Below, one piece after another: positions 47,391 through 64,000 of a stretch of DNA of 64,000 nucleotides (within the stretch, counting starts at the first letter, position 1; each line of letters starts with the position of its first letter). This stretch comes from Longimicrobium sp. (GTDB lineage: Bacteria; Gemmatimonadota; Gemmatimonadetes; Longimicrobiales; Longimicrobiaceae), in NCBI GenBank assembly GCA_036377595.1, contig DASUYB010000105.1, positions 62,001-126,000 on the forward strand, written 5' to 3'. The notes under the pieces are model-generated. The model had not been told where the DNA came from and made no database searches. It saw only the letters and a list, made by a program, of their open reading frames with translations. Made by a program: the position numbers and the translations under genes.

Positions 47391-48317
47391 TCACGCCCGC
47401 TCGGCCTCGGTGCCCAGGATCAGCTCCAGCACCCGGTCGAAGTCGTCGGCGTTGTAGAAGGGGATCTCGATACGCCCGCTCTTCCCGCTCGCCACCCGGA
47501 TCCGCACGGGCGTGCCGAGCGCGCGCTGCAGCTCCGCCTCCAGGTGCCGCACGTGCGGGTCGTCCATCGCCTCGCGCACCCCGGCCATCGTCGACCGCGG
47601 CGAGGCGGCCGGGGCCCCGGGCCGCAGCTGCCGGACGCGCTCCTCCACCGTGCGCACCGACATCCCCGCGTCCGCGGCCTGCCGCGCGAGCTCGGCCATC
47701 TCCCGCTCGCTCTCCAGCCCCAGCAGCGCGCGCGCGTGCCCCATCGACAGCTCGCCCTCGTTCACCATCCGCTGCACGGTGGCGGGGAGCGACAGGAGGC
47801 GGAGGAGGTTGGCCACGGTGGAGCGCTCGCGGCCTACGCTGTCGGCCACCTCGGCCTGCGTGTAGCCGAACTCGTCGATCAGCTGCCGGTATCCGGCCGC
47901 TTCTTCGAGCGGGGAGAGCCCGGCGCGCTGGACGTTCTCGACGATGGCGAGGACGAGCATCGCGCGGTCGTCGATCTCCCGCACGACGACGGGCACCTGC
48001 GGCCAGCCCAGGCGGCGCACGGCCCGCCACCGCCGCTCCCCCGCGATCAGCTCCCACTCCGCGCCGTCCGGCGTCGCGTCCGTCCGCGGGCGGACCACCA
48101 GCGGCTGCAGCAGCCCGTTCTTGCGGATCGAGTCTTCGAGCTCCGCCAGCTGCTCGGCGCTGAACTCCCGGCGCGGCTGGAACGGGTTGGGCGCGATCCG
48201 GCTCGTGGCCACCTCGCGCACCCCCTCGCCGGTGGCGATGGCCTGCTGCGTCTCGGCCGAGAAGTCGCCGAGGAGCGCGCTCAGCCCCTTCCCCAGGCGG
48301 GGCTTGCGGGACGACAC
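47391..48317 (-). CDS. parB: Chromosome partitioning protein ParB
   Basis: The protein has 308 residues. The N-terminal LGKGLSALLGD motif contacts ParA. The CTPase domain has LIAGERRWRAVRRLG (GERRxRA) and the ENVQRAGLSPLEEA segment. A helix-turn-helix follows (YTQAEVADSVGRERSTVANLLRLLSLP), then the C-terminal dimerisation domain (RIEIPFYNADDFDRVLELI). It loads on parS as a CTP-dependent clamp and spreads. Two parS sites lie nearby at 49232 and 51256. It starts 3 bp after parA ends, in a tight operon. Confidence 0.93.
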   Translation of the reverse strand: MSSRKPRLGKGLSALLGDFSAETQQAIATGEGVREVATSRIAPNPFQPRREFSAEQLAELEDSIRKNGLLQPLVVRPRTDATPDGAEWELIAGERRWRAVRRLGWPQVPVVVREIDDRAMLVLAIVENVQRAGLSPLEEAAGYRQLIDEFGYTQAEVADSVGRERSTVANLLRLLSLPATVQRMVNEGELSMGHARALLGLESEREMAELARQAADAGMSVRTVEERVRQLRPGAPAASPRSTMAGVREAMDDPHVRHLEAELQRALGTPVRIRVASGKSGRIEIPFYNADDFDRVLELILGTEAERA

Positions 48318-48320
48318 GGA

Positions 48321-49148
48321 CTACTCTCCCCCGGCCGCGGCGGCGGGGGCCGCCTCGATCTCCGCCGCGCCGCGGCCGCCCTTCCCCCGCTTCGCGATCA
48401 CCTCCTTCGCGAGGGAGAGGTAGCTCTTCGCGCCCACGGAAAGGATGTCGTAGAGGACGATCGGCTTCCCGAAGCTCGGCGCCTCGGCGATGCGCACGTT
48501 CCGGGGGATGGTGGTCTTGTAGACCTTGGGGCCGAAGTACTCCTTCGCCTCGTCGGCCACCTGGCGCGAGAGGTTGAGGCGCCCGTCGTACATCGTCAGC
48601 AGCACCCCCTCGATCTGCAGCGCGGGGTTCAGGTTCTTCTGCACGATGGTGACGGTGTTCAGCAGCTGCGACAGCCCCTCGAGCGCGTAGAACTCGCACT
48701 GGATGGGGATCAGCACCGAGTCCGACGCCGCCAGCGTGTTCAGCGTCAGCAGCCCGAGCGACGGCGGGCAGTCGATCAGGATGAAGTCGTAGCGGTCGCG
48801 CACCGCCTCGATGGCGCGGCGGAGGATAATCTCGCGCCCCTTGCGGTTCACCAGCTCCACCTCGGCGCCCACCAGGTCGCGCGTGGCGGGCACCACGTCC
48901 AGGTAGGGGAAGTGCACCTCGCGGACGATCACGTCCTCGATCGGCGCCTCTTCGATCAGGACGTCGTAGATCGACTTCTCGACCTCGTCCTTGTCGATGC
49001 CCAGCCCGCTGGTGGCGTTCCCCTGCGGATCGGTGTCGATGACCAGCGTGCGCTTTTCGGCCACGGCCAGGCATGCGCCCAGGTTGATGGCCGTGGTGGT
49101 CTTGCCGACGCCGCCCTTCTGGTTCGCGATGGCGATGATGCGCGACAC
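48321..49148 (-). CDS. parA: Chromosome partitioning ATPase ParA
   Basis: The protein has 275 residues. Deviant Walker A is [17 protein letters not shown] (residues 8-24), with [15 protein letters not shown] after it and Walker [19 protein letters not shown]. ParA binds DNA non-specifically as an ATP dimer and pulls ParB-parS complexes. Translation likely begins at GTG 49148, which has AGAGGA 5 bp upstream; no ATG is available. A Glu/Ala-rich tail of about 20 residues ends it. It is followed directly by parB. Confidence 0.93.
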
Positions 49149-49231
49149 GCGTCCTCTGCGTTGGGATGGGGAGATGGGGTCCGGGGAATCTACACGGCGG
49201 GCCCTACTTCGTCCAGAAAACGAGGCGGGAA

Positions 49232-49247
49232 TGTTCCACGTGGAACA
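49232..49247. other. parS site 1
   Basis: TGTTCCACGTGGAACA is a perfect 16-bp palindrome that matches the bacterial parS consensus TGTTTCACGTGAAACA with symmetric changes at two positions. It lies in the 125-bp gap between mnmG and parA. Confidence 0.92.
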
Positions 49248-49273
49248 TCTGAATGCGCGATCAATCGCTCCCG

Positions 49274-51169
49274 TCAGGCACCGACGGCCGCGCCACGGCG
49301 CTTCCGCACCTCCATCACCAGGTTCTGCAGGTCGCTCGGGCTCACACCCGGGATGCGCCCCGCCTGTGCCAGCGTCGCCGGGCGTACGCGATCCAGCTTC
49401 TGACGCGCCTCGTAGCTCAGCGTCGCCAGCGCGGAATAGGGAAGGTCCGCCGGAAGGGCGAAGTCCGCCTGCCGGCGCAGCGTCTCCGCGCGCTCCCGCT
49501 CGCGCGCGAGGTAGCCCTCGTACTTGAGTTCCATCTCCGCCGACACGAGCGCCTCCGCGACGGCGGCTTCGTCCTCCCCCTCCACCGGCGCACTGCCCAC
49601 CGCCTCCGCCAGCGCCTCGGCGGTGACACCGGGGCGCTTGAGAATGGCCGCCAGCCGCGTCGGCTCCCGCAGCGGCTGCGAGTTGGCCGACCGCAGCAGA
49701 TCGTCGACCTGCGCCGGCGCCGCGTTGGTGCTCCGCAGCCAGCCGTCCAGCCTTGCGGCAAGATCGAGCCGGTGATCGAGCACCGCGCGCTGCTCCTCCG
49801 TCAGCAGCCCGCGCTCCGCGGCGATCGGGCCGAGGCGGTGCAGGGCGTTGTCCTGGCGCAGCACCAGCCGGAACTCCGCGCGCGAGGTGAAGAGGCGATA
49901 CGGCTCGTCCGTCCCCTTCGTCACCAGGTCGTCCACCAGCACGCCGATGAAGGCCTGGTCGCGCTCCAGGAGCAGCGGCTCGCGGCCGAGTGCGTGGAAC
50001 GCGGCGTTCGCCCCGGCCACGATCCCCTGCCCGGCGGCCTCCTCGTACCCCGTGGTCCCGTTCACCTGGCCGGCGAGGAAGAGCCCGCCCAGCGCCTTGC
50101 ACTCCAGCGTCGGGCGGAGCTGGTGCGGAGGATAGTAGTCGTACTCGATCGCGTAGCCGACTTTCGTCATCCGCGCGTTCTCCAGCCCCGGGATGGAGTG
50201 GAGCATCCGTAGCTGCACGTCCGCGGGGAGCGAGGTGGAGAGGCCGTTCACGTACAGCTCCGTCGTCTCCAGTCCCTCCGGCTCCAGGAATACCTGGTGC
50301 CGCGGGGCGTCGGGGAACTTCACGATCTTGTCCTCGATCGACGGGCAGTAGCGCGGCCCGCGCCCCGAGATCTCCCCTCCGTAGAGCGCGGAATCGCTCA
50401 GGTGGTCGGTGACGAGGTCGCGCAGCGGCTCCCCGGTCCACGTGATCCAGCACGGCCGCTGGGGGAGAAGGGGTGCACGCTCCCACACAGAGAGGCGATA
50501 CTCCGGCATCTCCCCCGGCTGCACGTCCGTCCTGGAGAAGTCGACCGAGCGCCCGTCGATCCGGGGCGGCGTGCCCGTCTTGAAGCGCGCGACCTCCAGC
50601 CCCAGCACCTCCATCTGCTCGGCGAGGCGAACGGACGGCGGATCCCCCGCGCGGCCGGCGGGCACCCCCGGCGCCCGGCCGACGTGGATGCGGCCGCGCA
50701 GGAAGGTGCCGGTGGTAAGGACGACGGCGCGCGCGCGGAACTCGAACCCGTTCTCCGTCCGCACGCCCGCGACGCGGCCGCCCTCCAGGATCAGCGAACC
50801 GACCATCCCCTGGAAAAACTCCAGGCCTGCGTACCGCTCCAGCAGCGCCCGAGCGGCGCGGGGATACAGCCCCCGATCGCACTGCGCGCGCGGGGCCCAC
50901 ACGGCGGGGCCCTTGGAGCGGTTCAGCATGCGGAACTGGATGCGCGCGCGGTCCGTGGCGAGACCCATCACCCCGCCGAGCGCATCCACCTCGCGCACGA
51001 CCGTGCCCTTGGCCACCCCACCGATCGCGGGATTGCAGCTCATCTGGCCGATGGCCTCGAGGTTGGCCGTCACCAGCAGCGTGCGCGCACCCGCACGCGC
51101 CGCGGCGGCCGACGCCTCCACGCCGGCATGCCCGCCCCCCACCACGATCACGTCGAACACGCTCGTCAT
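49274..51169 (-). CDS. mnmG: tRNA uridine-5-carboxymethylaminomethyl modification enzyme MnmG
   Basis: The protein has 631 residues, the usual length. FAD binding is [21 protein letters not shown] at the N terminus. [50 protein letters not shown] and the [15 protein letters not shown] insert are MnmG signatures. The C-terminal MnmE-interacting helices end [12 protein letters not shown]. With MnmE (53865-55238) it makes cmnm5U34 in tRNA anticodons using glycine, FAD and methylene-THF. It is followed by parAB, the common oriC order. Confidence 0.95.
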
Positions 51170-51255
51170 CCGATCGATCCACTCCGAAGTCGCAGGTACA
51201 GATCTTCAATATATAACAATGTCAGGCGCGCATCCGAGGCCGTGTACGCTACGAA

Positions 51256-51271
51256 TGTTCCACGTGAAACA
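51256..51271. other. parS site 2
   Basis: TGTTCCACGTGAAACA differs by one base from the canonical parS. It lies 86 bp upstream of the mnmG start, in the mnmG/YqjD-like divergent region (51170-51407). Confidence 0.92.
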
Positions 51272-58446: not shown

Positions 58447-59859
58447 ATGGAGCACACCGCAGGGGAGGTCTGGTCGCGCATCCTCGACGCCGCGAAGGCT
58501 GCGCTGCCCGAACAGGCGTACCGGACCTGGCTGGCCCCGACCGAGGCGGTTGCGATCTCGCAGGACCTGCTGGTGGTGTCCACTCCCAACCCGTTCGCGG
58601 TGGAGTGGGTGGAGAAGCAGTACGCCGCGATGCTCACCGGTCTCGGCGAGTCGCTCTTCGGGCGGCGCTTTACGCTGTCGGTCCAGTTCCAGGCGAACGG
58701 CAAGCCGGCCGCCGTCCCACCCACCCCCCTCGAGATCGCGCCCCCGCCCGTGCCCGCCGCCGCGCCCGCGCAGGCCTCCGCACCCCCGTCCGCCGCGCAC
58801 TCCGCGCCGGGGATGCGCACGGTGCCGCTCAACCCGCGGTACACCTTTCCGCGCTTCGTCATCGGCAACAACAACCAGCTTGCCGCCGCGGCCGCGCACG
58901 CCGTGGCCGAGGCGCCGGCGAAGCACTACAACCCGCTGTTCATCTACGGCGGCGTGGGGCTGGGCAAGACGCACCTGATGCACGCCATCGGCCACGCGAT
59001 GCTCGACCGCGAGCCGGGGAAGCGGGTGATGTACCTGTCGTCGGAGCGCTTCACCAACGAGCTGGTGTCGGCCATCCAGGAGGGCTCGATGGCCGAGTTC
59101 CGCCGCCAGTACCGGCAGATCGACCTCCTCCTGGTGGACGACATCCAGTTCCTGGAGGGGAAGGAGCGCACGCAGGAGGAGTTCTTCCACACCTTCAACG
59201 CGCTCCACGACGCCCAGCGCCAGATCGTGCTCACCTCCGACCGGCCGCCGAAGGAGATCGGGCTGGAGGACCGGCTGGTCTCGCGCTTCGAGTGGGGGCT
59301 GGTGGCCGACATCAAGGCGCCCGACTTCGAGACGCGGATGGCCATCCTGCGCCGCAAGGTGGAGGAAGACGGGCTGGTGATCCGCGACGCCGAGGACGTG
59401 CTGACCTTCATCGCCCGCAACCGCACGTCGTCGGTGCGGGAGATCGAGGGCGCGGTGATCAAGCTGCTGGCCTACTCGTCGCTCACCGGCCGGCCGATCG
59501 ACATCTCCCTTGCCCAGGAAGCCCTGGGCGGCGCGCTGCGGCCGGGCGGCGCCGGCGGAGGAAACGGCGCGGCGGAGATCTCGCCCGAGCGGGTGCGCGA
59601 CAAGGTGGCCGAGGCGTTCGGCACCACGGCCGAGGCGCTGCAGTCGAAGAAGCGCACCAAGGACCTGACGGTGCCGCGCCAGGTGGCCATGTTCCTGACC
59701 CGCGAGCTGTTCGACCTGCCGCTGGTGGAGATCGGCAAGCTGTTCGGCGGGCGCGACCACTCCACCGTGATCCACTCCATCAGCAAGGTGGAGGAAGACA
59801 TGGCGGCGGACGCGGGGTTCCGGCAGCGTGTGGACACCCTGCGGGCGTCCTTCCGCTGA
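58447..59859 (+). CDS. dnaA: Chromosomal replication initiator DnaA
   Basis: The protein has 470 residues. Domain I is at 1-85 (VWSRILDAAKAALPEQAYRTWLAPTEAV), followed by a Pro/Ala-rich linker. AAA+ domain III starts YTFPRFVIGNNNQLAAAAA and has Walker A YGGVGLGKTHLMHAIG, Walker B LLLVDDIQFLEGKERTQEEFFHTFNAL, and ISM/arginine-finger segments (SDRPPKEIGLEDRLVSRFEWGL). Domain IV ends with the DnaA-box-binding motif GGRDHSTVIHSI. It opens oriC and loads the helicase. It is convergent with nothing and followed by the origin. Confidence 0.96.
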   Translation: MEHTAGEVWSRILDAAKAALPEQAYRTWLAPTEAVAISQDLLVVSTPNPFAVEWVEKQYAAMLTGLGESLFGRRFTLSVQFQANGKPAAVPPTPLEIAPPPVPAAAPAQASAPPSAAHSAPGMRTVPLNPRYTFPRFVIGNNNQLAAAAAHAVAEAPAKHYNPLFIYGGVGLGKTHLMHAIGHAMLDREPGKRVMYLSSERFTNELVSAIQEGSMAEFRRQYRQIDLLLVDDIQFLEGKERTQEEFFHTFNALHDAQRQIVLTSDRPPKEIGLEDRLVSRFEWGLVADIKAPDFETRMAILRRKVEEDGLVIRDAEDVLTFIARNRTSSVREIEGAVIKLLAYSSLTGRPIDISLAQEALGGALRPGGAGGGNGAAEISPERVRDKVAEAFGTTAEALQSKKRTKDLTVPRQVAMFLTRELFDLPLVEIGKLFGGRDHSTVIHSISKVEEDMAADAGFRQRVDTLRASFR

Positions 59860-60251
59860 CGTGTTCCGCGCGGCTCCTTGACAGGCGCGGGGGGCGGCGC
59901 GTATTTGCGCGCGTCTCCACTCCGGTTGCTTGCACCCCCGCGCCCCGCGTGTCCGGACCGTTACAGGGGTGTGGAAACGGACTGGGGAAAGGGCGTGGAA
60001 AGTTTGTGGGTAACCGCCGCGTTCTGTGGGGATGTGGAGTCCGTGGAGAACCGGCGAGTTCCCCACATCTCCCGTCCACAGGTGGGAAAGCCCGCAAATG
60101 GTTGCGGGACAGCGGGATGAGGGTTGCGGGAGAGAGCTTTCCACACTTCCACACCCTCTACTACTACGACTGAGATTTGTAACTCTCTCGTCATTAGTAA
60201 GTATTCCGGTGGAAAAGGACCGGTCACTCCAGCCTGGGCTGTGGACACCGT
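59860..60251. other. Replication origin (oriC), dnaA-dnaN spacer
   Basis: This 392-bp spacer carries at least nine sites with the TGTGG/CCACA core of DnaA boxes, including 59970-59978, 60005-60013 (reverse complement TTACCCACA, one mismatch to consensus), 60025-60033, 60058-60066, 60137-60145, 60145-60153 and 60240-60248. Two abutting boxes at 60137-60153 are followed by CTACTACTA at 60158-60166 and then an AT-rich stretch (60171-60205, with TCATTAGTAAGTATT) that could be the unwinding element. A box before dnaA (58376) adds to the set. Confidence 0.85.
60158..60166. promoter_or_regulatory. DnaA-trio-like CTA repeat beside DnaA boxes
   Basis: CTACTACTA begins 4 bp after the second of two abutting boxes (CTTTCCACA, ACTTCCACA). 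On the other strand it reads 3'-GAT-5' repeats, the DnaA-trio described in Bacillus origins, and an AT-rich region follows. Confidence 0.55.
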
Positions 60252-61361
60252 ATGCGATTCACCATCACGCGTGAGAACCTCCAGCAGGGGCTGGGCGCGG
60301 TGGCCGGGAGCATCCCGACGCGCACCACGCTGCCGGTGCTCTCGAACATCCTGATCGAGGCCGAGGACGGCGCGGTGCGGATGAGCGGCACCGACCTCGA
60401 CACCGCGGTGAGCGTGCGCGTGCCGGCCGACGTGGCCGAGCCGGGCGCCATCACCGCGCCGGCCAAGAAGCTCCAGGAGATCGCCCGCGAGCTCCCGGGG
60501 GCCACGGAGATCAGCACGCAGGGCGACTCGATCTTCATCAGCAGCGGACGCAGCCGCTTCAAGCTGAACGGGCTGCCGAGAGACGAGTTCCCCGCCTTCC
60601 CCAGGGTGGACTTCACCGAGAGCTGGCGGGTGACGGGGGCCGACCTGCAGCGGCTGATCACCCACGTCTCGTTCGCGGCGTCGACCGAGGAGACGCGGCC
60701 GATCCTGAACGGCGTGCTCTGGCAGCTGCACGACGGCGAGATGCGGATGGTGGCCACGAACGGCCATCGCTTGGCGAAGATGACGCTGCCGGTCGAGGCC
60801 GGGTCCCCGGTGCCCGCGGCGGACCTGATCGTGCACCCGCGCGCGCTGGCGCAGGTGCAGCGCCTGTTCGCGTCCGACACGCCGGTGGAGGTGGCGCGCT
60901 CGGAGAACCACATCGGCTTCCGCAGCCCCGAGGTGCAGGTGTTCACGCGGCTGATCGAGGGGCCGTATCCCAACTACGAGCAGGTTATCCCCAAGGACAA
61001 CGACAAGACGATGGTGGCGGAGAAGGCGGCGCTGACGGCCGCCGTGCGCCGCATGGCCATCGTCGCCAGCGACCAGACGCACCGGATCCGGCTGTCGCTG
61101 GGCGGCGCGTCCCTCAAGTTCAGCGTGGAGAGTCCCGACCTGGGCGCCGCCAACGAGGAGCTGGAGGTGGAGTACGACGGCGATCCGCTGGAGATCGGCT
61201 TCAACGCGCAGTACCTCCTCGAGCTGTTGCGCTACATGCCGACGGACGAGGTGCGGATGACCTTCAAGGCGCCCGAGCGCGCGGCCACCATGCAGCCGCT
61301 GGGGAACGAAGACACGCCCGACTACCTCTGCCTGGTGATGCCGCTGCGTCTGCTGAGCTGA
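60252..61361 (+). CDS. dnaN: DNA polymerase III beta sliding clamp
   Basis: The protein has 369 residues, the clamp length with three similar domains. MRFTITRENLQQGLGAVAGSIPTRTTLPVLSNILIEA is the canonical start. EETRPILNGVLWQLHDGEMRMVATNGHRLAKM opens domain 2 and the C terminus is YLCLVMPLRLLS, which resembles the conserved clamp ending P-M-R. It encircles DNA and tethers polymerase III. recF and gyrB, usual next genes, do not follow; instead a Tn7-like element begins 16 bp after the stop codon. Confidence 0.96.
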   Translation: MRFTITRENLQQGLGAVAGSIPTRTTLPVLSNILIEAEDGAVRMSGTDLDTAVSVRVPADVAEPGAITAPAKKLQEIARELPGATEISTQGDSIFISSGRSRFKLNGLPRDEFPAFPRVDFTESWRVTGADLQRLITHVSFAASTEETRPILNGVLWQLHDGEMRMVATNGHRLAKMTLPVEAGSPVPAADLIVHPRALAQVQRLFASDTPVEVARSENHIGFRSPEVQVFTRLIEGPYPNYEQVIPKDNDKTMVAEKAALTAAVRRMAIVASDQTHRIRLSLGGASLKFSVESPDLGAANEELEVEYDGDPLEIGFNAQYLLELLRYMPTDEVRMTFKAPERAATMQPLGNEDTPDYLCLVMPLRLLS

Positions 61362-61377
61362 CGGCACGTCACCACGG

Positions 61378-61445
61378 TGTCCCAAACAAATAAGGTTGGT
61401 AACTGAAAAATAAAGTTGGTAACTCAGAAATAGAGTTGGTAACTC
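61378..61445. mobile_element. Tn7-like transposon end with three TnsB-type binding repeats
   Basis: The proposed terminus is TGT at 61378, 16 bp after the dnaN stop. Three direct repeats follow at exact 20-bp spacing: AAATAAGGTTGGTAACTG (61388), AAATAAAGTTGGTAACTC (61408) and AAATAGAGTTGGTAACTC (61428). Closely packed repeats inside a TGT end, next to tnsA, match the right end of Tn7. The 5 bp before the terminus, CACGG, would be the target duplication. The far end is outside the window. Confidence 0.75.
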
Positions 61446-61466
61446 GCCGGGGTGACTCCTCGACGA

Positions 61467-61508
61467 ACGGGTCCGCTCCCTTAGTGGGGATGGACCCGTG
61501 TCTTTTTG
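61467..61508 (+). terminator. Rho-independent terminator inside the element end
   Basis: ACGGGTCC and GGACCCGT form the outer stem, extended inward by CCC/GGG pairs with mismatches, followed by GTCTTTTT. It would stop read-through from dnaN into tnsA. If the terminus is right it belongs to the transposon. A weak promoter candidate follows (TTGGAT 61524, TATTCC 61546). Confidence 0.7.
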
Positions 61509-61664
61509 GCTCCACGCTTTGGGTTGGATCACACAATGGCCGAACTATTCCGGTCTTGGACCGAACCAGCTAAGTCCCGGTTCAGGTCCTTCTCGCTACG
61601 ATTCGAGAGGAGTCGCCCGTGCGACATCTCTCTCCTGGATCTGTGACGAGGCCGGACAGCGGCT

Positions 61665-62438
61665 ATGGACAAGTGGAACTCGGAACTCTGTGGGGCGGAT
61701 TACAGACCGGCGCTGACGGTTCGGAGCTTCGGCTCCCGCGGCAAATCCATCCGTATCGCCGGCCACACGACCGGTCGCGTCCACCACTTCTTCAGCATGG
61801 TGGAGGAATCAGCCTTCCTGCTCTACGACTGGCTTCCCGACGTATCCGATATCCGCGAGCAGTACGCGCTCGAGCTGGACGTCACCCAGGCGATCGCGTT
61901 CGAGCTCGGCATCGCCCATATCACCGACCGGAAGAGCGGCAAACCACATCCGGTCACCACTGACCTCGTCCTGAGTCGGCGCGTCGGGAGCGGCGAGGTC
62001 ACTCAGGTCCGGTCCTGCAAGCGGAGCGGTGATCTGGGCGGGAGCCGCACGCTTCAGAAGCTCGAGATCGAGAGGCAGTACTGGCTGCGGCGCGGGATCG
62101 AGTGGAAGCTAGTGACCGAGCGGGATCTCCCGGATCCGCTGATCAGGAATCTCCGATGGCTGCATCCCTTTGTTCAACCGTCCTCTGTGGGCATCGCGTC
62201 CGAACACCTCGCCTACCTCATCAAGAACCTACATCGCCGGATCCAGGACCAGCGCGAGAAATCTCTCGCCTACATCTGCACCGAGTGCGACAGGAGCCTC
62301 GGGACTGAGCCAGGTGGCCACCTCGCCCTCGCTCGCCACGCGGTGGCGAGCCGGCAGTGGCGTGTCGACCTACACGCCGAGATCGATCCCTCGCGGCCCC
62401 TCCTCCTTCGGGACGATACCTCGACGGAGGCATCATGA
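61665..62438 (+). CDS. tnsA: TnsA-like transposon endonuclease
   Basis: The protein has 257 residues. The N-terminal PD-(D/E)xK domain aligns with Tn7 TnsA: SMVEESAFLLYDWLPDVSDIREQYAL (catalytic Glu in VEE, about 47-48), HPVTTDLVLS (Asp100) and VRSCKRSGD (Lys119). The spacing is close to Tn7 Glu63, Asp114, Lys132. TnsA cuts the 5' ends so the element leaves the donor fully. The C-terminal domain, which in Tn7 contacts TnsC, here contains C205-x2-C208-x10-H219-x5-H225, a zinc-finger-like set that Tn7 TnsA is not known to have. ATG 61665 is the only start after an in-frame TGA at 61644. It overlaps tnsB (ATGA). Confidence 0.85.
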   Translation: MDKWNSELCGADYRPALTVRSFGSRGKSIRIAGHTTGRVHHFFSMVEESAFLLYDWLPDVSDIREQYALELDVTQAIAFELGIAHITDRKSGKPHPVTTDLVLSRRVGSGEVTQVRSCKRSGDLGGSRTLQKLEIERQYWLRRGIEWKLVTERDLPDPLIRNLRWLHPFVQPSSVGIASEHLAYLIKNLHRRIQDQREKSLAYICTECDRSLGTEPGGHLALARHAVASRQWRVDLHAEIDPSRPLLLRDDTSTEAS

Positions 62439-64000
62439 TGACGCTGCTGGTCAACCAGATACTGATGTGCACAGAGTCCGAGCGGGATCCGGTGCGCGTC
62501 CTCTGGCTTGAGCCGGCACATCTGGCGGCACGGCGGGTTGCGGTCATTCGGCTGGCCCGCGACGAGAGAATCCCGGAGTGGGAGGATCTGGAGGCACTCA
62601 CAGCGGCGGTCGACAACGGGGTTTACGTCATCGCCTCCGTCGACACTTTCGCGCCCCGAGCCTCGCTCGAGGAAGACCTCACGGAGGTAGAGCGGCGCGT
62701 GCGGGACGCCCGGTACGGGATCATCAGACCGCTCGTCGAGGACCCGGAGCAGAGCATCCTGTACGAGGACCTGCGTGGGCCGCTGATCAAGTCGGCCGCC
62801 GAGCAGAGCCACACGAGCAGGAAGAACGTCTACCATCTGCTGGGGCTCTATTGGCGGGGAGGACAGACGCCTAATGCTCTCGTTCCCGCTTACGTCAACT
62901 CCGGCAGGTCCGGTTCCCGGATCACCGCCGGCGCCGACACCACCACCAAACGCGGGCGGCCGAGAAAACCGGTTCCCGGCAAGGAGCACATCGTAGGAAT
63001 CAACGTCAATGAACGCACCCGGAAGCTGCTTCTGCTGGGCGCCAAGGAATTCCATGAGAAAGGCGGGATGCCGCCGAAGGAAGCGTACGACGCGACGATC
63101 AAGACCTACTTCGCCTGCGGCTACGAAGTTGCTGCCGATGGAACCCTCGAACCGATCATCCCAGCGGAGGACGACCGGCCGTCCTTCGGCCAGTTCTGTT
63201 ACCACTACGGCGCCGAGCGGGATAGCCGTCGCGCGCTCATCACGAGAAAGGGCCACAAGCGTTTCCTGCTGGAGAACCGGCCTGTCCTGGGCACCTCGTA
63301 CCACCTCGGACCGGCACCCGGCGCGCTGTACCAGATCGACTCGACCAGGGCCGACATCTCTCTCCGGAGCTCGCTCCGCGCTTCCAGGAAGATCGGGCGC
63401 CCCATCATCTACGTCGTGCGAGACCTGTTCAGCCGGATGATTGTGGGGTTTCACATCGCTCTCGAGGGTCCCAACTGGCTGGGGGTTCGTTCCGCGCTGC
63501 AGTCAGCGTTCATGGACAAGGTGGCCTTCTGCGCACGTTTTGGCAGGGTCATCGCGGCGGAGGACTGGCCCTGCTTGAATGTCCTTTGCGACGAAATCCT
63601 TGGTGATCGCGGACCAGCCGAGATCCTTAGCAAGAATGCCGATTTCCTGATCAACAGCTTTCGGGTTCGGGTGAGCAACGCTGCCCCGAGCCGGCCGGAC
63701 TGGAAAGCGGTGATCGAACGGGTCTTCCCGCTCTACCATCACGCGTATTCATGGGAGCCGGGCGCGGTTCATGGCCCTCGCGAACGGGGAGAGCCTGATC
63801 ACCGTCTCGACGCGGTGCACACCCTCTCCAGCTTTACGCGGCTCTTCCTCGAACTGACCCTCCAGTTCAACAACTGCACCTGGCTGGGCGCCTACGATCC
63901 CGACGCCGACGTGCTGCGCGACGAGGTTCCCTTGATTCCCCGGGAGCTGTGGAACTGGGGGATTCATAACCGGCAGGGGGCGCTCCGTCCCGTGAGCGAT
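62435..64000 (+). CDS. tnsB: TnsB-like DDE transposase, truncated by window edge
   Basis: 522 codons are visible with no stop, so the gene continues past base 64000. ATG 62435 overlaps the tnsA stop (ATGA), with GGAGG at 62426-62430 spaced 4 bp; a second ATG follows at once. A DNA-binding part at about 110-180 has HTSRKNVYHLLGLYWRGGQTPNALVPAY then TKRGRPRKP, typical of TnsB. The RNase H-like catalytic residues are Asp302 (LYQIDSTRADI), Asp391 (EILGDRGPAEI) and Glu428 (KAVIERVF); spacing of 89 and 37 is close to Tn7 TnsB. TnsB cuts 3' ends and joins them to target. tnsC and tniQ are expected to the right. Confidence 0.88.
   Translation, partial: MMTLLVNQILMCTESERDPVRVLWLEPAHLAARRVAVIRLARDERIPEWEDLEALTAAVDNGVYVIASVDTFAPRASLEEDLTEVERRVRDARYGIIRPLVEDPEQSILYEDLRGPLIKSAAEQSHTSRKNVYHLLGLYWRGGQTPNALVPAYVNSGRSGSRITAGADTTTKRGRPRKPVPGKEHIVGINVNERTRKLLLLGAKEFHEKGGMPPKEAYDATIKTYFACGYEVAADGTLEPIIPAEDDRPSFGQFCYHYGAERDSRRALITRKGHKRFLLENRPVLGTSYHLGPAPGALYQIDSTRADISLRSSLRASRKIGRPIIYVVRDLFSRMIVGFHIALEGPNWLGVRSALQSAFMDKVAFCARFGRVIAAEDWPCLNVLCDEILGDRGPAEILSKNADFLINSFRVRVSNAAPSRPDWKAVIERVFPLYHHAYSWEPGAVHGPRERGEPDHRLDAVHTLSSFTRLFLELTLQFNNCTWLGAYDPDADVLRDEVPLIPRELWNWGIHNRQGALRPVSD

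Follow-up and report, generated by a model that had tools for sequence, protein, structure and literature searches.

The window, that is, the whole 64-kb stretch of DNA analysed here, stems from a genome assembly of 7,204,191 bases in 208 contigs and contains dnaA for the initiator protein (58447-59859, plus strand), identified as an open reading frame, by Pfam and by its match to B. subtilis DnaA (8btg, E 1.5e-121), followed by dnaN for the sliding clamp (60252-61361, plus strand; open reading frame and Pfam). The closest named matches of dnaN come from Gemmatimonadetes MAGs and Longimicrobium sp. YPbin7, with 84-88% identity for the top five. The region between both genes features three upstream DnaA boxes on the minus strand (GTTTCCACA, 59970-59978, two mismatches; TTACCCACA, 60005-60013, one mismatch; TTCTCCACG, 60042-60050, two mismatches) and one on the plus strand (TTCCCCACA, 60059-60067, two mismatches). 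Further downstream, a tandem pair of plus-strand boxes, the distal CTTTCCACA (60137-60145) and the proximal ACTTCCACA (60145-60153), is followed on the same strand by the C-rich spacer CCCT (60154-60157) and by a DnaA-trio array CTA CTA CTA CGA CTG (CTACTACTACGACTG, 60158-60172), the contact strand of which is the bottom strand. The array stands at the start of a stretch of weak duplex, the presumed unwinding element (60158-60207), and an inverted DnaA box (TTTTCCACC / GGTGGAAAA; 60208-60216, minus strand) faces this opening from the far side. A preliminary description of this DNA had placed the order box-spacer-trio-AT-rich tract between dnaA and dnaN, and all of these elements are present there, including the short C-rich spacer and the AT-richer stretch that extends from the trios to 60207. 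Some details have to be adjusted. The two boxes face in the same direction but do not abut; rather, the 9-mers are placed 8 bp apart and have one base in common. The CTA run consists of five trinucleotide units instead of three, and the range originally proposed, 60137-60205, stops just short of the conserved reverse box.

The co-oriented box pair, with two and three mismatches, agrees with the published rule for basal unwinding systems (BUS), which allows up to two and up to four, and CCCT corresponds to the short, GC-rich spacer of about 4 bp on average that is expected between proximal box and trios. Trios are defined as at least three consecutive units with a middle adenine, 3'-NAN-5' (PMC8287927, available part). 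Three consecutive canonical trios (CTA) are found here, just the published minimum, followed by CGA as unit 4, which violates the middle-adenine rule, and then CTG. The trios sit in a thermodynamically weak region, as is typical of BUS: the GC content of 60158-60207 is 38% versus 71% across the window, by nearest-neighbour energy, the 50 bp from 60158 onward form a weaker duplex than 99.97% of all 50-bp windows, thus belonging to the weakest 0.03%, and the minimum for the intergenic region is reached by the 50 bp from 60156 onward. The sequence CTACTACTA occurs once in the window, as does the box-box-spacer-trio pattern when up to three mismatches are allowed, and both were absent from 100 dinucleotide shuffles each. 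The exact 49-mer of this site is present as a single copy in the whole genome assembly.

For comparison, 111 loci were collected; 96 reached the cut-off for both genes, and 86 remained as distinct dnaA-dnaN intervals. Within the 300 bp preceding dnaN, we scored the 14-mer that fits (CTA)n best and set the cut at 11/14 or better. On the forward strand 78 of the 86 loci reached this value, on the reverse strand two did, and in 77 loci the run had a shuffle p≤0.01. Shuffles generated within our scripts were first-order Markov samples and not exact dinucleotide shuffles. The cut was missed by eight loci, clearly so by one (L032, 9/14). The CTA repeats, whose absence from relatives would have refuted the proposal according to the preliminary description, are therefore conserved. 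When anchored on the trios, CCACA cores (up to one mismatch) occur at -9 in 60 and at -17 in 48 of the 78 loci, the places of the proximal and distal box, respectively, and at few other offsets; the 8-bp box spacing and the 4-nt spacer are thus nearly fixed across the phylum. This trio-anchored test was substituted for a published-style BUS scan with up to three mismatches to TTATCCACA, which matched 48 of the 86 loci and outperformed every one of 20 shuffles in 40, a weak yield because the boxes in many distant loci deviate from the E. coli consensus. A class-wide pattern search proved useless, its backwards control matching far more often than the pattern itself.

Among the residues of B. 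subtilis DnaA that capture or flank trio bases (roles according to the available part of PMC10721633), E183, N187, I193, R202, K222, E223 and E228 are identical in the DnaA encoded here, and I190 is replaced by Val. The dinucleotide-pocket residues N, V, I, R and E are found at positions 204, 207, 210, 219 and 245 of this protein. The equivalent of N196, which contacts the third base in B. subtilis, is Gly. The genome also encodes a second DnaA-like AAA+ protein that falls below the family cut-off (L159, G000:C113:42918-43637).

Only two 16-mers in the 7.2-Mb assembly are within two mismatches of the parS consensus, and both reside on the contig of the window (C105:111232 and C105:113256, corresponding to 49232-49247 with two mismatches and 51256-51271 with one mismatch), about 9-11 kb from the trios (C105:122158). 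Open reading frames at 47391-48317 and within 48321-51209 encode proteins that we take to resemble ParB and ParA. These parS-like sites provide independent support for an origin at this place. GC skew was dropped as an origin marker because it is uninformative: it is flat and shows no inflection on the own contig (241,715 bp), and it is equally flat on a 232-kb contig from the same genus (G017 contig C7) and in 20 samples of 20 kb from the complete chromosome of a relative (CP070716.1). A CTA repeat that arose by chance or has nothing to do with initiation, the DNA actually opening at another site, would fit the flat GC skew and the fact that not all trios are canonical, but this very improbable reading is strongly disfavoured by conservation, position and spacing of the array across the phylum and by the proximity of parS. 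Given the conserved array, the kept pocket residues and the nearby parS-like sites, we consider it highly likely that 60137-60216 represents the unwinding core of a chromosome origin operated by a DnaA-trio BUS. The locus is most likely the replication start of the chromosome of this soil-type bacterium, and since the assembly consists of 208 contigs, a second origin could be located elsewhere. The initiation site suggested in the preliminary description thus gains support from the conservation of the CTA repeats and from the parS-like sites. Very probably, we are dealing with a DnaA-trio origin of known kind; our searches of the open-licence literature yielded no account of one for Gemmatimonadetes. 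The DnaA-trio module would hereby be extended to a phylum for which we found none described, by conservation data and not by a single motif match.

To our knowledge, the B. subtilis origin is devoid of an inverted DnaA box beyond the opening, whereas such a box is present here and the genome contains DciA. Features shared with the B. subtilis BUS (boxes 6/7 and trios) are two co-oriented boxes, a GC-rich spacer, trios of the 3'-GAT-5' type, a weak duplex and the DnaA pocket residues. Differences concern the five units with CGA at the fourth position, Gly in place of the third-base contact N196 and the spacer, 4 nt here versus a 5-mer in B. subtilis (available part of PMC10316083). The term Bacillus-like, which had been applied to the module, is therefore appropriate for the box-box-spacer-trio order and for the DnaA pocket but not for the inverted box at the far side, and it probably does not extend to helicase loading because the genome has DciA. 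Helicobacter pylori oriC2 likewise combines a trio array with adjacent DnaA boxes (available part of PMC10316083), but the H. pylori origin is bipartite, follows another box consensus and has a longer and more AT-rich trio run. In Thermotoga maritima oriC (DnaA-trio plus eTrio), three tandem TAG are the essential single-strand contact, according to the available part of the published account, and three tandem TAG adjoin the boxes here; in T. maritima, however, the TAG run comes only after an AAA-TAA stretch and, rather than standing across the opening, the inverted box is part of the box cluster.

Counted from the first base of the trios, the inverted box begins at exactly +50, and it lies 36 bp ahead of the start codon of dnaN. 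In the 21 loci with at least 67% dnaN identity, the best reverse box is located at +50 in 17 cases, at +49 in two and at +48 in one; for the remaining locus, the scan picked a tie at +18. Mean pairwise identity amounts to 0.71 for boxes plus spacer, 0.73 for the trios, 0.41 for the linker, 0.75 for the inverted box and 0.36 for the sequence after it, all calculated without gaps for 21 loci picked for the +50 spacing, such that the value for the inverted box is somewhat flattered. For a wider sampling of the own order, 117 genomes were searched. A GTGGA core at +35 to +75 is present in 17 of 19 loci of family f1, four of seven of family f2 and 17 of 34 of family f3, compared to 0.8, 0.4 and 0.7 loci expected from shuffles, and 36 of 39 core occurrences fall between +47 and +53 from the first trio. 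A forward-facing core was not found in the far-side interval of any of the 60 loci from these three families. The count for f1 covers 19 of 21 genomes and omits G008, whose dnaN is broken, and G015, whose piece of sequence gave no dnaA match; for these two, inspection by eye revealed a degenerate box at +49 and a box at +50, respectively. That for f2 covers seven of ten loci, leaving out L160 with GTGGA at +49, L167 with none and the unreadable L161, and for f3 54 genomes (34 plus 20 with variant trios) were read out of 81 with dnaN, chosen to span genera. In the same 60 loci, the distance from trios to dnaN start ranges from 69 to 152; the position of the box therefore follows the trios, not dnaN. 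Among 65 loci with less than 67% dnaN identity, only L036 and L013 contain a reverse box with up to two mismatches, and both match f2 members of the own order (L168 and L166), which makes an opening bracketed by facing DnaA sites look like a trait of this Gemmatimonadota order. Many of the loci L015-L081, all with less than 67% dnaN identity, have a TCCACA-type site in forward orientation directly ahead of dnaN, at a distance of about 45-47 or 55-59 bp from the trios; these two classes are about one helical turn apart, a grouping confounded with how far away dnaN starts.

In E. coli oriC, both DnaA arrays reside on one side of the unwinding element, whereas the facing DnaA sites bracket it here. 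Two oppositely facing DnaA assemblies as such are also a feature of E. coli (available part of PMC5043019). We recognised no case of DnaA boxes flanking an unwinding element on both sides in the open-licence literature, including the available parts of PMC10316083, PMC5043019 and PMC6669920, and the order-specific bracket thus appears to be new.

From these features we infer binding, unwinding and helicase loading to proceed as follows. DnaA would bind the tandem boxes at 60137-60153 as duplex, as judged from their sequence, and an ATP-DnaA filament would extend from there across CCCT onto the bottom strand 3'-GAT GAT GAT GCT GAC-5'. Capturing two bases per protomer, it would open the weak 50-bp stretch, as suggested by the structure from B. 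subtilis and by the conservation of the pocket in DnaA. DnaA on the reverse box would most likely mark the far boundary of the bubble. It is conceivable, and we put this forward tentatively, that it secures this distal end, limits melting to about 50 bp and possibly bridges to the DnaA platform opposite. This is consistent with the near-constant distance between trios and box, with conservation of the box but not of the linker sequence, with its reverse orientation in every family of the order and with the lack of opposite-strand trios: a second trio array was not found beside the inverted box, and only two of 86 loci reach the cut at any position of that strand. The intact GTGGA core is, however, absent from 17 of the 34 f3 loci, several of which contain degenerate forms.

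More speculatively, DnaA on the reverse box could serve as docking point for the helicase of the strand opposite the trios, i.e., recruit DnaB together with DciA and thereby enable bidirectional replication without DnaD. Orientation and place of the box opposite the trio platform agree with this idea, as does the presence in the own genome of DciA, an ancestral helicase operator studied with a data set that includes Gemmatimonas aurantiaca (available part of PMC5109545). For B. subtilis, the second helicase has been proposed to arrive via DnaD on a strand-specific element that also serves the strand opposite the trios (available part of PMC10201434). Still, the helicase-docking role derives purely from inference, and relatives outside the order lack the inverted box and would nevertheless be expected to replicate bidirectionally; we regard it as somewhat unlikely. 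Rather less likely is a two-sided origin in the whole order, in which the strand of the first helicase is specified by the trios and that of the second by the single inward-facing box about 50 bp away, combined with a more permissive trio code. If true, it would be a DnaD-free solution for loading two helicases in opposite directions. A function of the inverted box in the control of dnaN transcription by DnaA, unrelated to unwinding, is improbable. The box does stand close to the gene, 36 bp ahead of its start codon, but what stays constant is the spacing to the trios, whereas that to dnaN varies.

Two genera of the own order, g12 and g27, make up a special case because the CTA trios are replaced by (C/T)TATGATGACGA or close forms while the box-box-spacer frame is intact. 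These variant trios, (C/T)TA-TGA-TGA-CGA, retain the three-nucleotide repeat and break the published NAN rule. They are present in 19 of 20 g12 genomes and in the sole g27 genome, i.e., in 20 of 21 overall (loci L196, L197, L201, L203, L204, L208 and L210-L223), and ten of these 20 loci feature a reverse GTGGA core at +57 or +58. In DnaA of the variant clade, the pocket residues are unchanged where read and flanking ISM residues are changed. The position of B. subtilis N196 is occupied by H, Q or N in the clade and mostly by G or R elsewhere. We rejected this residue as determinant of the trio switch: the exceptional G091 and its neighbour G073 combine canonical trios with N, and a clean DnaA determinant is thus not apparent. 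Both genomes are nonetheless placed inside the variant clade in a DnaA tree of 52 sequences (support of 0.77 for the clade), which means either that the trios change easily or that this part of the tree is incorrect. The variant clade represents a natural experiment on the sequences tolerated by the DnaA pocket, and trio rewriting with unchanged pocket residues, if true, would mean that the trio code is less strict than now assumed. DnaA from G091 (L230), the only g12 genome with canonical trios, sits on a long branch and carries Val where B. subtilis has E183, a change also seen in G027 (L247).

On the other side of dnaN, a Tn7-like transposon starts 16 bp past the stop codon, spans 61378-64000 of the window and continues into L116 (1-12300). 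Its end is marked by TGT at 61378 and three 20-bp repeats (61388-61447). TnsA was identified by Pfam (PF08722/PF08721) and was not found in the loci of relatives examined. The open reading frames after tnsA presumably encode TnsB, TnsC and TniQ, the TnsB-like one having no Pfam match. For such an element, a target site at dnaN, some 1.2 kb away from the origin, would be unusual. The cargo of the element appears, by our assumption, to resemble methyltransferases and McrBC-type defence genes.
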